Assembly: GCA_937135955.1 (NCBI GenBank)
Contig: CAKZOB010000014.1
Coordinates: forward strand, 1-42,079
From: an uncultured Anaerolineales bacterium
GTDB taxonomy: Bacteria; Chloroflexota; Anaerolineae; Aggregatilineales; Aggregatilineaceae
DNA length: 42,079 nucleotides
Direction of reading: 5' to 3'
Below the pieces are notes generated by a model. That model was not told the origin of the DNA, made no database searches, and saw only the letters and a list, made by a program, of their open reading frames with translations. The position numbers and the translations under genes are program-made. Positions 6,465-8,852 of the stretch are shown one piece after another (positions within the stretch are counted from its first letter, which is position 1; every line of letters starts with the position of its first letter).

Positions 6465-8306
6465 CTATTCCACCGTCACGCTCTTGGCCAGGTTGCGCGG
6501 CTGATCTACGTCGCAGCCCCGCCACACAGCAATGTGATAGGCCAGCAGTTGCAGCGGGATGACCGCCACAGTCGGGCTGAGCAGGGGCGGCGTTTCTGGC
6601 ACGTAGATCACGTGATCGGCTTTGCTGCGGATCGCTGTGTCGCCGTCCGTCGCCAGCGCGATCACGATCCCTCCGCGCGATTTGGCCTGTTCTATCTGGC
6701 TGAGCATCTTCTCGTACACGGCGTCGCGCAGGCAGATCGCCAGCACAGGCATGTGCTCGTCAATCAAGGCGATCGGGCCGTGCTTCATCTCGCCTGCCGG
6801 GTAGCCTTCGGCGTGAATGTAGCTGATCTCCTTGAGCTTCAGCGCCCCTTCGAGCGCAATGGGGTAGTTGATGCCCCGCCCCAGGTACAGGAAATCGGTG
6901 TAGTGATAGAGTTCGGCGGCCAGTGCCTCGATCTGCGCTTCGCGTTCCAGCGTCTGCCCCACCAGGTCGGGCAACCGCGCCAGGTCTTCGACGTGCGCGC
7001 AGGCCGCTTCGGGCGACAGTTGGCCGCGCTCCTGCGCCAGGTAGAGCGCCAGCAGATATTGGTCGGCGATGCTGGTAGTGAAGGCTTTGGTGCTGGCGAC
7101 GCCGATCTCAGGCCCGGCCTGCATGGCGATGTAGCCGTCGGCAAGGCGCATGGCCTGGCTGCCGATGGCGTTGACAATGCTCCACAGCACCGCGCCCTTG
7201 GCGCGCGCTTCTTCCATGGCGGCCAGCGTGTCCACTGTCTCGCCAGACTGTGTGATGGCCAGCACGGCGCAGGTGTCGTCCAGGATGGGATCGCGGTAGC
7301 GATATTCGCTGCCGTAGTCCACTTCGACGGGGATGCGCGTCAACGCCTCGATGATGAACTTGCCCACCAGCCCGCTGTAGGCGCTGGTGCCGCAGGCGAC
7401 GGTGACGATGCGCGTCAGACGGCGGGCAAGCTCCGGCGTCAGGTTCAGTTCTGGCAGGCAGACGCGCCCCTCCTGGAAGTCCACGCGCCCGCGCAGCGTG
7501 TCGGTGAGCGCACGCGCCTGCTCGTGAATCTCCTTCTGCATGAAGTGCTTGTATTCGCCGCGCGCCGCGCTGACCGGGTCCCAGGGGATGGTGTGCAATT
7601 CGGCGTCTACCGGCTCACCATCCAGGGTTTGCACCTGGTAGGCATCGCGGGTGAGCGTGACCATCTGGCGGCTTTCCAGGAAGATCATGCGGCGCGTGTG
7701 TTCGAGGATGGCCGGGATGTCGGAGGCGACGAACATCTCGCCCTGACCGACGCCCACCGCCACCCCGCCCGCGTTGCCGATGCGCACGGCCACCAGGCGA
7801 TCGGGTTCAGCCGTGCTCAGGGCAACGATGGCATGAGCGCCGCGCAGCCGTTGCACGGCCCGGCGCGTGGCCTCGGTGAGATCGTAGCCGGAGTCCTGCT
7901 CGCGCTGAATCAGGTGCACGATGGTCTCGGTGTCGGTGTCGGAGGCGAAACGCACGCCCGCGGCTTCGAGTTCAGCACGTAGCTCGCGGAAATTCTCCAC
8001 GATGCCGTTGTGCACTACCACCGTCGTCCCGCTCTGGCTCAGGTGCGGGTGCGCGTTGCGCGGACTGGGTTCGCCGTGCGTGGCCCAGCGCGTATGCCCA
8101 ATGCCGATGTGCCCGTTGAGCGGTTCGGCGCTGACCAGGCGGATCAGATTGCTGAGTTTGCCCACATCGCGGCGGATGGCCAGGTGACCGTTCTGAATCA
8201 CCGCCAGCCCCGCCGAATCGTAGCCGCGATATTCCAGGCGCTGCAGGCCGTTGAGGATGATCGGCGTGGCGTCACGAGGACCGATATAACCGACAATGCC
8301 ACACAT
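6465..8306 (-). CDS. glmS: Glutamine--fructose-6-phosphate aminotransferase (isomerizing)
   Basis: Makes glucosamine-6-phosphate from fructose-6-phosphate and glutamine, the first step to UDP-GlcNAc for peptidoglycan and surface glycans. The 613-residue protein starts MCGIVGYIG, so Cys2 becomes the N-terminal nucleophile of the class II glutaminase domain (about 2-220), which also shows HTRWATHG and HNGIVENF. Two SIS isomerase domains follow, with VACGTSAYSG, TQSGETVDT and GPEIGVASTKAFT in the first and GRGINYPIALEGALKLKE and AEGYPAGEMKHGPIALI in the second. The C-terminus ends DQPRNLAKSVTVE, the family signature. A longer frame begins at 8363, but the ATG at 8306 is fixed by the Cys2 requirement and by GGGAGGG eight bases upstream. 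The leader contains a glmS ribozyme (8428-8632), so feedback by glucosamine-6-phosphate is expected. Confidence 0.98.
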   Translation of the reverse strand: MCGIVGYIGPRDATPIILNGLQRLEYRGYDSAGLAVIQNGHLAIRRDVGKLSNLIRLVSAEPLNGHIGIGHTRWATHGEPSPRNAHPHLSQSGTTVVVHNGIVENFRELRAELEAAGVRFASDTDTETIVHLIQREQDSGYDLTEATRRAVQRLRGAHAIVALSTAEPDRLVAVRIGNAGGVAVGVGQGEMFVASDIPAILEHTRRMIFLESRQMVTLTRDAYQVQTLDGEPVDAELHTIPWDPVSAARGEYKHFMQKEIHEQARALTDTLRGRVDFQEGRVCLPELNLTPELARRLTRIVTVACGTSAYSGLVGKFIIEALTRIPVEVDYGSEYRYRDPILDDTCAVLAITQSGETVDTLAAMEEARAKGAVLWSIVNAIGSQAMRLADGYIAMQAGPEIGVASTKAFTTSIADQYLLALYLAQERGQLSPEAACAHVEDLARLPDLVGQTLEREAQIEALAAELYHYTDFLYLGRGINYPIALEGALKLKEISYIHAEGYPAGEMKHGPIALIDEHMPVLAICLRDAVYEKMLSQIEQAKSRGGIVIALATDGDTAIRSKADHVIYVPETPPLLSPTVAVIPLQLLAYHIAVWRGCDVDQPRNLAKSVTVE

Positions 8307-8427
8307 GGTGAGTCCCTCCCAAAGACAGGATGAGCGGTGGGCCAGCGAACCGGACAGCGACACACCGCACGACCGGCGCGGGCACTCCGTGCATCCAACG
8401 AACGTTATGAACGTTGCTGGAACACCA

Positions 8428-8632
8428 CTGCCGCACCTTTTGGGCCGCCGTTGCCGACGGTGTTTGTGGCGCAGCTTCGGTTGGGAGGGAAGAGCAAGGG
8501 GCGTGGCGCACCCCTGACGGCATCCGCAGATCGTTCGATTTTCCCCCGCCGGAGCGGGGTTAGGCTCGCCTTGCGACGAGCAACCGTCACCTCGTATCCC
8601 CGCACCACCTTTGGCGCGCGGGGCCTTACGCT
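8428..8632 (-). ncRNA. glmS: glmS self-cleaving ribozyme in the glmS leader
   Basis: Catalytic RNA that cleaves the glmS message when glucosamine-6-phosphate binds. On the minus strand, cleavage is predicted between A8632 and G8631 in AGCGTAAGG, which aligns with the consensus A|GCGCCaGrr. Next is a hairpin, CCCCGC (8623-8618) with GCGGGG (8603-8598), then the conserved ACGAGG (8594 to 8590 and beyond). Helix TGACGG (8589-8584) pairs perfectly with CCGTCA (8520-8515). Between these strands stands AAAATCGA, a 4-nt linker and TCTGCGGATG, matching the core AUCGA...UCGGCGGAUG except one base. That base change is compensated: C8630-G8629-T8628-A8627 pairs with TGCG at 8528-8525. About 40 nt carrying two extra hairpins, with GCAA and TCCG tetraloops, sit inside the core helix loop. 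Downstream hairpins (8514-8498 and 8474-8428) form the 3' domain. Confidence 0.9.
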
Positions 8633-8852
8633 AGCGTTCCCTCATTCAGCGTCGGTAAACCTCCTCTTTCCGGATAATTCAGTGTAGAAACAGTATAACT
8701 GCCCAGGCCGGAAATGTGCAAATAAAGATTTGTAAAAAGAGCACAATTGACGATGGTCAACCAGGCGGTGGGCAAACGCCGGAACGCGACCCTTGTCAGC
8801 CTGCGCGACAGCCATCACAATTGGGGCGTTCGCTGGTGAAGAGAACAGGCCG
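8633..8852. other. Intergenic DNA between the glmS ribozyme and the LCP gene
   Basis: 220 bp. It contains the glmS promoter (8692-8721, minus) and a strong purine-rich AGGAGG (8665-8660, minus) just before the ribozyme. Toward the LCP gene I see no convincing promoter: a TTGACG at 8747 has no matching -10. Confidence 0.5.
8692..8721 (-). promoter_or_regulatory. Promoter of glmS and its ribozyme leader
   Basis: Minus strand: TTGCAC (8721-8716), 18 bp, TATACT (8697-8692). Initiation near 8685 would place about 50 nt before the ribozyme cleavage site and about 380 nt before the glmS ATG, as expected for a ribozyme-controlled message. Confidence 0.65.

Follow-up and report, generated by a model that had tools for sequence, protein, structure and literature searches.

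The RNA encoded on the minus strand upstream of glmS in the window (the whole stretch of DNA analysed, 42,079 nt) is in all likelihood a complete glmS ribozyme, whose response to glucosamine-6-phosphate (GlcN6P) and cleavage are drawn from its family; a self-cutting RNA switch very probably stands before the gene whose product makes GlcN6P. Comparison with relatives from the same class, Anaerolineae, also supports, by covariation, a helix (P0) that ties the leader on the substrate side of the cleavage site to the strand between P3 and P4 (J3/4). A second possible partner of that strand, the Shine-Dalgarno of glmS, leads us to propose tentatively that self-cleavage acts on translation as well. 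The sequence-only reading that this analysis followed up had neither P0, nor the complementarity of J3/4 to the Shine-Dalgarno, nor the breadth of the ribozyme's distribution in the class.

A very probable ribozyme in the glmS leader

Inspection of the minus strand of 8643-8420 recovered every element that the sequence-only reading had listed, in the order claimed: A8632/G8631 with CGTAAGG, ACGAGG at 8595-8590, AAAATCGA at 8542-8535, 4 nt, and TCTGCGGATG at 8530-8521, together with the perfect helix formed by TGACGG (8589-8584) and CCGTCA (8520-8515). The start of glmS lies at 8306, 325 nt from the cleavage site, in agreement with the roughly 300 nt given there. The features are listed below, where A1 denotes the alignment of the window with 12 relatives from its family (13 sequences) and A2 that of 96 distinct class sequences. 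Helix names follow the accessible parts of PMC11602151 and PMC7125110, and the assignment of TGACGG/CCGTCA as P2 is our own.

6465-8306, minus strand: glmS, glutamine--fructose-6-phosphate aminotransferase, 613 aa (Pfam SIS and glutamine amidotransferase domains, GlmS matches)
8425-8428, minus strand: P3.1 3' strand, GTGG (from the sequence; class-wide covariation z 3.2, 0/1000 permutations)
8430-8475, minus strand: P4 with internal loop and GCAA tetraloop, L4 (RF00234 alignment and sequence)
8498-8514, minus strand: P3 hairpin (RF00234 alignment, folding and sequence), whose loop L3, CCA(C), can pair with GTGG at 8428-8425 to give P3.1
8515-8520, minus strand: P2 3' strand, CCGTCA (pairing in A1 and A2)
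8525-8528, minus strand: P2.2 3' strand, TGCG, nt 53-56 (paired in 13/13 family sequences)
8536-8538, minus strand: P2.1 3' strand, TCG of AUCGA (pairs with 8594-8592 in 13/13 family sequences)
8584-8589, minus strand: P2 5' strand, TGACGG (pairs with 8520-8515; z 14.9 against swapped partners)
8590-8595, minus strand: ACGAGG, the P2.1 5' strand (8594-8592) and adjoining core strand (invariant in A1; matches RF00234)
8598-8623, minus strand: P1 hairpin, base CCCCGC/GCGGGG (6/6 pairs change on both sides in A2)
8627-8630, minus strand: P2.2 5' strand, CGTA, nt 2-5 (paired in 13/13 family sequences)
8631-8632, minus strand: expected cleavage site between A(-1) and G1 (equivalent to the known glmS ribozyme position)

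The covariance-model search of the minus strand that had been proposed was performed as a permissive scan of 8280-8760 with RF00234; the alignment to 8643-8420 spans all 167 positions of the model, and its score of 23.2 bits (E 0.0019 for the 481 nt scanned) does not reach the gathering score of 37 bits, a cut-off set by curators that is no property of the molecule. A default Rfam scan of the window missed the ribozyme and reported a tRNA as its only match. Across the whole 4.28-Mb genome the locus was the sole RF00234 match at E 10 or better (E 0.004), and it stands upstream of the single glmS gene found at E 1e-100. Features of RF00234 found in the sequence were the cleavage-site A followed by GCG, then P1 and ACGAGG, the P2 helix closing the core, and placement in the glmS leader, to which the full-length alignment added P3, the P3.1 pseudoknot and P4 with its internal loop and GNRA loop. 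The A at -1 recurs in 145 of 150 parsed relatives. The assignment to the glmS ribozyme class was borne out by the full-length match and by the core pairing of the family, and that of the host to Chloroflexota by the 13 best named GlmS matches, 59-69% identical, all of them Anaerolineae or other Chloroflexi records. By analogy with the family, the RNA would bind GlcN6P and be cleaved at 8632/8631; as a GlcN6P-activated self-cleaving element of the glmS 5' leader, it would lower glmS expression when GlcN6P is plentiful.

Spread in the class, core pairing and inserted hairpins

Of 396 genomes of the class, RF00234 has matches in 221 (E 0.5 or better), and the gathering score is exceeded in 116. 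A model made from the 13 sequences of A1 (R1) matched 16 of the 18 genomes of the window's family, 13 of which had supplied the model, and 54 in a sample of 301 genomes from the phylum; it also matches loci above the 37-bit gathering score. The 99 matches that R1 gave in 100 class loci outside the model, loci pre-fetched as RF00234 matches, indicate that the family form and the rest form one group and say nothing of frequency. The sequences of the class entered the set as RF00234 matches, for the most part from the roughly 150 listed, and do not give the true share of genomes. Parsing by sequence anchors found 151 of them; dropping L001, of which the window is a duplicate, left 150, and dropping L083, L089 and L106, the three from outside the phylum, left 147, so that the window itself is absent from both sets. 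Loci that did not fit the anchors were left out, and L009, L024, L038 and L132, for example, seem to have a misplaced cleavage site, which adds noise. For comparison we used 31 reference ribozymes, mostly from Bacilli (the best-scoring loci of 61 genomes plus three loci from GlmS matches), and 20 loci from other classes of the phylum fetched with R1, of which 16 could be parsed. A plasmid search with GlmS (315 records) showed no Deinococcota in either its ten named groups or the 60 rows listed.

In A1, 98.3% of structure cells were paired, with all 7 pairs of P2.1 and P2.2 present in 13/13 sequences. In A2, an alignment that was fitted to the model's structure and leans towards it, 95.1% of cells were paired versus 63.5% in shuffles and 36.6-50.0% when partners were slid by 1-3 columns, and 24 of 25 pairs showed changes on both sides; the open-end pair of P2 was mostly unpaired across the class (67/95 cells). 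These comparisons show the double-pseudoknot core (P2, P2.1 and P2.2), and its P3/P4 support is present as well. A chance resemblance, or membership of some other RNA class, is hardly credible: the score does lie below the Rfam cut-off, and the single-sequence folding energy is not unusual (z -1.15) and was set aside as evidence for a ribozyme, but the position before glmS and the full-length match argue against it, and the pairing in 13/13 sequences of A1 and the covariation among the 96 distinct class sequences of A2 do so strongly.

The sequence-only reading had further described a compensated core base pair. P2.2 does still pair in the window, through C8630-G8525, G8629-C8526, U8628.G8527 and A8627-U8528, but compensation of a C5-G53 pair was rejected as a novelty because pair 5-53 is a known variable one (PMC7125110, in the part accessible to us) and A with A is common in the class. 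At nt 53 the 150 parsed sequences divide into 74 with A, 63 with G, 12 with U and 1 with C. The 12 sequences with U53 all have A5 and are the 12 relatives in the window's family, which makes the pair A-U in 13/13 family sequences, from 7 genera. Sequences with G53 nearly always have C5, and those with A53 mostly have A5, often followed by U6, for which a bulged A5 with a U6-A53 pair is possible. Since C-G, A with A and A-U all occur at 5-53 in the class, the A-U pair may have arisen from A.A and not as compensation of C-G. In the window there is, in addition, a U-G wobble at 4-54; C occupies nt 4 in 139/147 relatives, U4 also occurs in L113, and U4 together with U53 was found, among the sequences examined, only in these two. 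A separate observation concerns nt 26, the base before ACGAGG (window 8597-8596 region), which is G in 136/150 parsed sequences; the window's family, with 13 sequences, has U or A there, and A at nt 25.

These deviations might mark a decayed relative that keeps the fold while the U4.G54 wobble, the A-U pair at 5-53 and the U at nt 26 have abolished cleavage, an explanation we consider very improbable. The rarity of the U4 and U53 combination and the prevalence of C4 favour it, as does the strong slowing of the Thermoanaerobacter core in vitro by most single changes at 5-53, according to the accessible part of PMC7125110. The same part of that study (Andreasson 2020) describes 5-53 as poorly conserved yet sensitive in vitro; the mildest change there is C5U, which gives a wobble pair, and this mildness counts against decay, together with the formation of P2.1 and P2.2 in 13/13 family sequences and the retention of A5-U53 in all 13 of them across 7 genera.

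Two hairpins are inserted in the core:

8564-8581, minus strand: hairpin A, 7 perfect bp with a GCAA loop (98.1% of cells paired)
8544-8559, minus strand: hairpin B, 6 perfect bp with a TCCG loop (95.5-98.5% of cells paired)

Both had been noted before, as an insertion in the loop of the core helix, a placement that we refine to J2/2.1, between the P2 5' strand and the P2.1 3' strand. Both are present and covary in A2, with changes on both sides in 7/7 pairs of hairpin A and in 6/6 pairs of hairpin B among the 96 distinct relatives, 11-18 of which have gaps in hairpin B. They are, however, not peculiar to the RNA of the window. The stretch from ACGAGG to AUCGA, P2 strand included, is 50 nt long in the window, at least 40 nt in 128 of the 150 parsed sequences (3 of which come from outside the phylum) and below 20 nt in 16 of them; it measures 9-10 nt in all 31 reference ribozymes, none of which contains the hairpins. 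In 13 of the 16 parsed sequences from other classes of the phylum it spans 51-115 nt, a share biased by the use of R1, which itself contains the hairpins, to find them. The J2/2.1 hairpins are, by these sequence comparisons, a conserved decoration of the Chloroflexota ribozymes. The glmS ribozyme is in this way extended in a large phylum in which the curated cut-off misses many members; the literature within reach, from which most subscription papers were missing, yielded no account of glmS ribozymes in Chloroflexota or Anaerolineae, or of the leader helix described below.

The leader helix P0 and the Shine-Dalgarno of glmS

Sequences flanking and within the ribozyme that bear on its output are as follows:

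8313-8322, minus strand: glmS Shine-Dalgarno region, TTGGGAGGGA (perfect 10-bp complement of 8490-8481; duplex -19.4 kcal/mol)
8481-8491, minus strand: J3/4 pyrimidine tract, TTCCCTCCCAA (8491-8485 forms the P0 3' strand, and 8490-8481 is the complement of the glmS Shine-Dalgarno)
8637-8643, minus strand: P0 5' strand, GAGGGAA, on the leader side of the cleavage site (complementary to 8491-8485)
8660-8666, minus strand: GAGGAGG, a Shine-Dalgarno-like leader element that no start codon follows at the usual spacing (from the sequence)
8692-8720, minus strand: sigma-70-like promoter, TGCACA, 17 nt, TATACT (a consensus match only; 1 found, 0.2 expected in shuffles)

P0 runs in the window from G8643-C8485 through A8637-T8491, and in the relatives, too, P3 and P4 are separated by a pyrimidine-rich tract with complementarity to the leader just before the cleavage site. 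To quantify this, the best ungapped stem between the leader (-13 to -2) and its own J3/4 was compared with the stems obtained when partners were permuted among sequences, giving 17.93 versus 13.94 for the 147 sequences (z 18, 0/1000 permutations) and 16.66 versus 13.19 for the 72 whose leaders are less than 75% identical (z 12, 0/1000). Control regions gave no signal, either from a stretch further upstream in the leader (z -0.7) or from P4 (z -0.4), and pairing of the upstream leader (-65 to -15) with J3/4 was rejected (z 0.6 and 0.5). The same test applied to helices of known ribozymes returned z 14.9 for P2 and z 3.2 for P3.1, which puts P0 close to P2. The best stem reached at least 6 bp in 120/147 sequences, and the 72 non-redundant ones contained 39 different duplexes of at least 7 bp, from GGGAAAGA/TCTTTCCC to CCATGACG/CGTCATGG. 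The share of stems of at least 6 bp was 0.71 with the own partner versus 0.46 with swapped partners, which often attain that length because many leaders are alike. Comparison of the sequences thus shows P0 to be a helix supported by covariation in the class. The signal was absent from the 31 reference ribozymes (z 0.9) and likewise from the 16 sequences that represent other classes of the phylum (z -0.4); L320, one of the latter, has a 7-bp match. Among the samples examined, P0 has so far been seen in the window's class. No description of such a covarying helix on the substrate side of the cleavage site was found in the papers within reach.

J3/4 also co-varies with the Shine-Dalgarno of glmS, as shown in the subset of sequences whose J3/4 carries CTCC like that of the window. 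Own versus permuted partners gave z 10 for 127 sequences and z 7.5 for 64 non-redundant ones; with CTCC in J3/4 the values were z 8.8 (n 80), 7.0 (n 41) and 7.8 (n 58), and without it z 2.7 (n 47) and 1.6 (n 31). CTCC is absent from 58 of the 147 sequences, and P0 persists where it is absent (z 6.4, n 31). Control stretches gave z 2.3 for P4, z 2.7 for 52-33 nt before the start codon and z 0.6 just after it, a weak background that perhaps comes from ancestry. Stems of at least 6 bp for both P0 and the Shine-Dalgarno pairing were found in 35 of the 64 non-redundant sequences, and in 25 of these 35 the two overlap by at least 3 nt.

Covariation was seen for both pairings, which could be mutually exclusive. 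A possible reading, to which we give rather less than even credence, is that the Anaerolineae glmS ribozyme is also a translational switch, its leader acting as an antisequestor that is lost by self-cleavage. In the uncut RNA, P0 would keep the J3/4 tract off the ribosome-binding site. After self-cleavage the leader, with its P0 strand, would leave the message, and the freed J3/4 would pair with the Shine-Dalgarno by way of an unpaired toehold beside P0 (8484-8481), so that translation would stop too; the cut message would decay by RNase J, as expected from the family.

Folding computations do not show the switch. In the window, the minimum-energy fold pairs the Shine-Dalgarno with J3/4 whether the RNA is cut or not, and as an isolated duplex P0 reaches -12.7 kcal/mol versus -19.4 for J3/4 with the Shine-Dalgarno, so a switch would need co-transcriptional kinetics or the tertiary structure of the ribozyme; P0 can, on the predicted order of events, form well before the Shine-Dalgarno is transcribed. 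Nested folding, which ignores pseudoknots, tertiary contacts and transcription order, was applied to the 112 messages that passed length limits among 129 with the glmS start seen. The unpaired share of the Shine-Dalgarno was 0.259 uncut versus 0.183 cut, and higher uncut in 82/112. A leader swapped in from another sequence gave 0.235, above the cut form in 76/112, and the own leader did better than the other one in only 64/112, which is not significant (p 0.078). Thermodynamic support for the switch was not obtained.

The genome also has a TIGR00649 match (567.7 bits, cut-off 400; model name MG423), which we take to be the RNase J family. RNase J degrades the cut glmS mRNA in Bacillus subtilis, and with the enzyme encoded here decay alone could be the output. 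We see an even chance that the output is the ordinary one, in which cleavage merely exposes the cut message to RNase J, P0 has the purely structural task of holding the substrate strand, and base composition and ancestry account for the complementarity of J3/4 to the Shine-Dalgarno. Besides the RNase J gene, the persistence of P0 where J3/4 lacks CTCC, the non-significant swapped-leader folding and the weak signals in two control stretches agree with this explanation. It accounts less well for a Shine-Dalgarno signal well above the controls in the CTCC subset, also when similar sequences are removed, and for the overlap of the two pairings in most sequences having both stems. Should the translational switch hold, translation would be a possible second output of a ribozyme known above all as a trigger of mRNA decay.

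The Shine-Dalgarno-like element of the leader has counterparts elsewhere, with GGAGG, AGGAG or AAGGA in the leaders of 106/147 relatives versus 31/145 control stretches. A short upstream ORF served by the leader GGAGG was rejected, because GGAGG or AGGAG is followed by ATG, GTG or TTG at 5-10 nt in 26/102 leaders, about the estimated chance level. As an idea only, the element might protect the uncut 5' end from RNase J.

Ribozymes before other genes and comparison with known systems

In sixteen further glmS-type ribozymes of the class, GCG[GA]CU replaces GCGC[CA] and is accompanied by UCAGCGG, which suggests a P2.2 with a bulge after G3 (C2-G56, G3-C55, bulge, C-G54, U-A53). Andreasson proposed that a bulge moved towards the centre of P2.2 can give higher activity than a mismatched helix (PMC7125110, accessible part), and these ribozymes may show such a shift in nature. 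Of the 16, seven stand immediately ahead of glutamine synthetase genes, recognised by Pfam in L140, L145, L149, L312 and L315 and by the look of the sequence in L142 and L146. The other nine (L301, L303-L305, L307, L309-L311 and L316) belong to one family (f32) and lie upstream of an ogt/AraC-type gene, identified by Pfam in L301, L304, L305, L307 and L316 and by eye in the other four, with a small ORF ahead of it in L303 and L309 and, where the DNA was long enough, an EamA-like gene as well (by eye). In seven of these nine, glutamine synthetase follows 2.2-2.8 kb further on (by Pfam in L304, L305, L307, L310 and L316, by the sequence start in L303 and L309); the DNA fetched for L301 and L311 ends short of that position. 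L241 also precedes glutamine synthetase, yet has the usual core. Glutamine synthetase was hence seen at 15 of 17 loci (the 16 with the rearranged P2.2, and L241), the DNA ending early at the other two. Ribozymes in this position suggest that the GlcN6P regulon is wider, and among the papers within reach no report of them was found.

Other ribozymes precede glutamate-synthase-type genes (Pfam Glu_synthase; L148 in genome G288, L300 in G192 and L138 in G034, the last with FAD and 4Fe-4S domains besides), lie about 320-530 nt before a DegT/DnrJ/EryC1 aminotransferase gene (L162, L167, L173 and L227/L319; Pfam was applied to L162, and the others start alike), or precede an ORF with CofD and phosphoglucomutase/phosphomannomutase domains (L024/L155 in G245).

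With the RF00234 ribozymes of Bacillus subtilis, Thermoanaerobacter tengcongensis and Bacillus anthracis, as described in the accessible parts of PMC11602151 and PMC7125110, the window shares the cleavage site, P1, P2, P2.1, P2.2, P3, P3.1, P4 with its GNRA loop and the place before glmS. It differs from the RF00234 references in the two J2/2.1 hairpins, the leader helix P0, and A5-U53 with U4.G54 in P2.2. The glmS variants of Deinococcus-Thermus that McCown described in 2011 (RNA 17:728) reportedly carry further stems within the catalytic core and altered supporting substructures. The likeness to the window concerns the presence of extra stems within the core; given these reported variants, such stems are in themselves no novelty. 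Translational riboswitches use anti-Shine-Dalgarno and anti-anti-Shine-Dalgarno strands, and here likewise three strands (leader, J3/4 and Shine-Dalgarno) could pair in mutually exclusive ways. Unlike in those riboswitches, the switching event proposed here would be the removal of a strand by self-cleavage, which, if true, would make this a natural riboswitch with an expression platform driven by strand loss.
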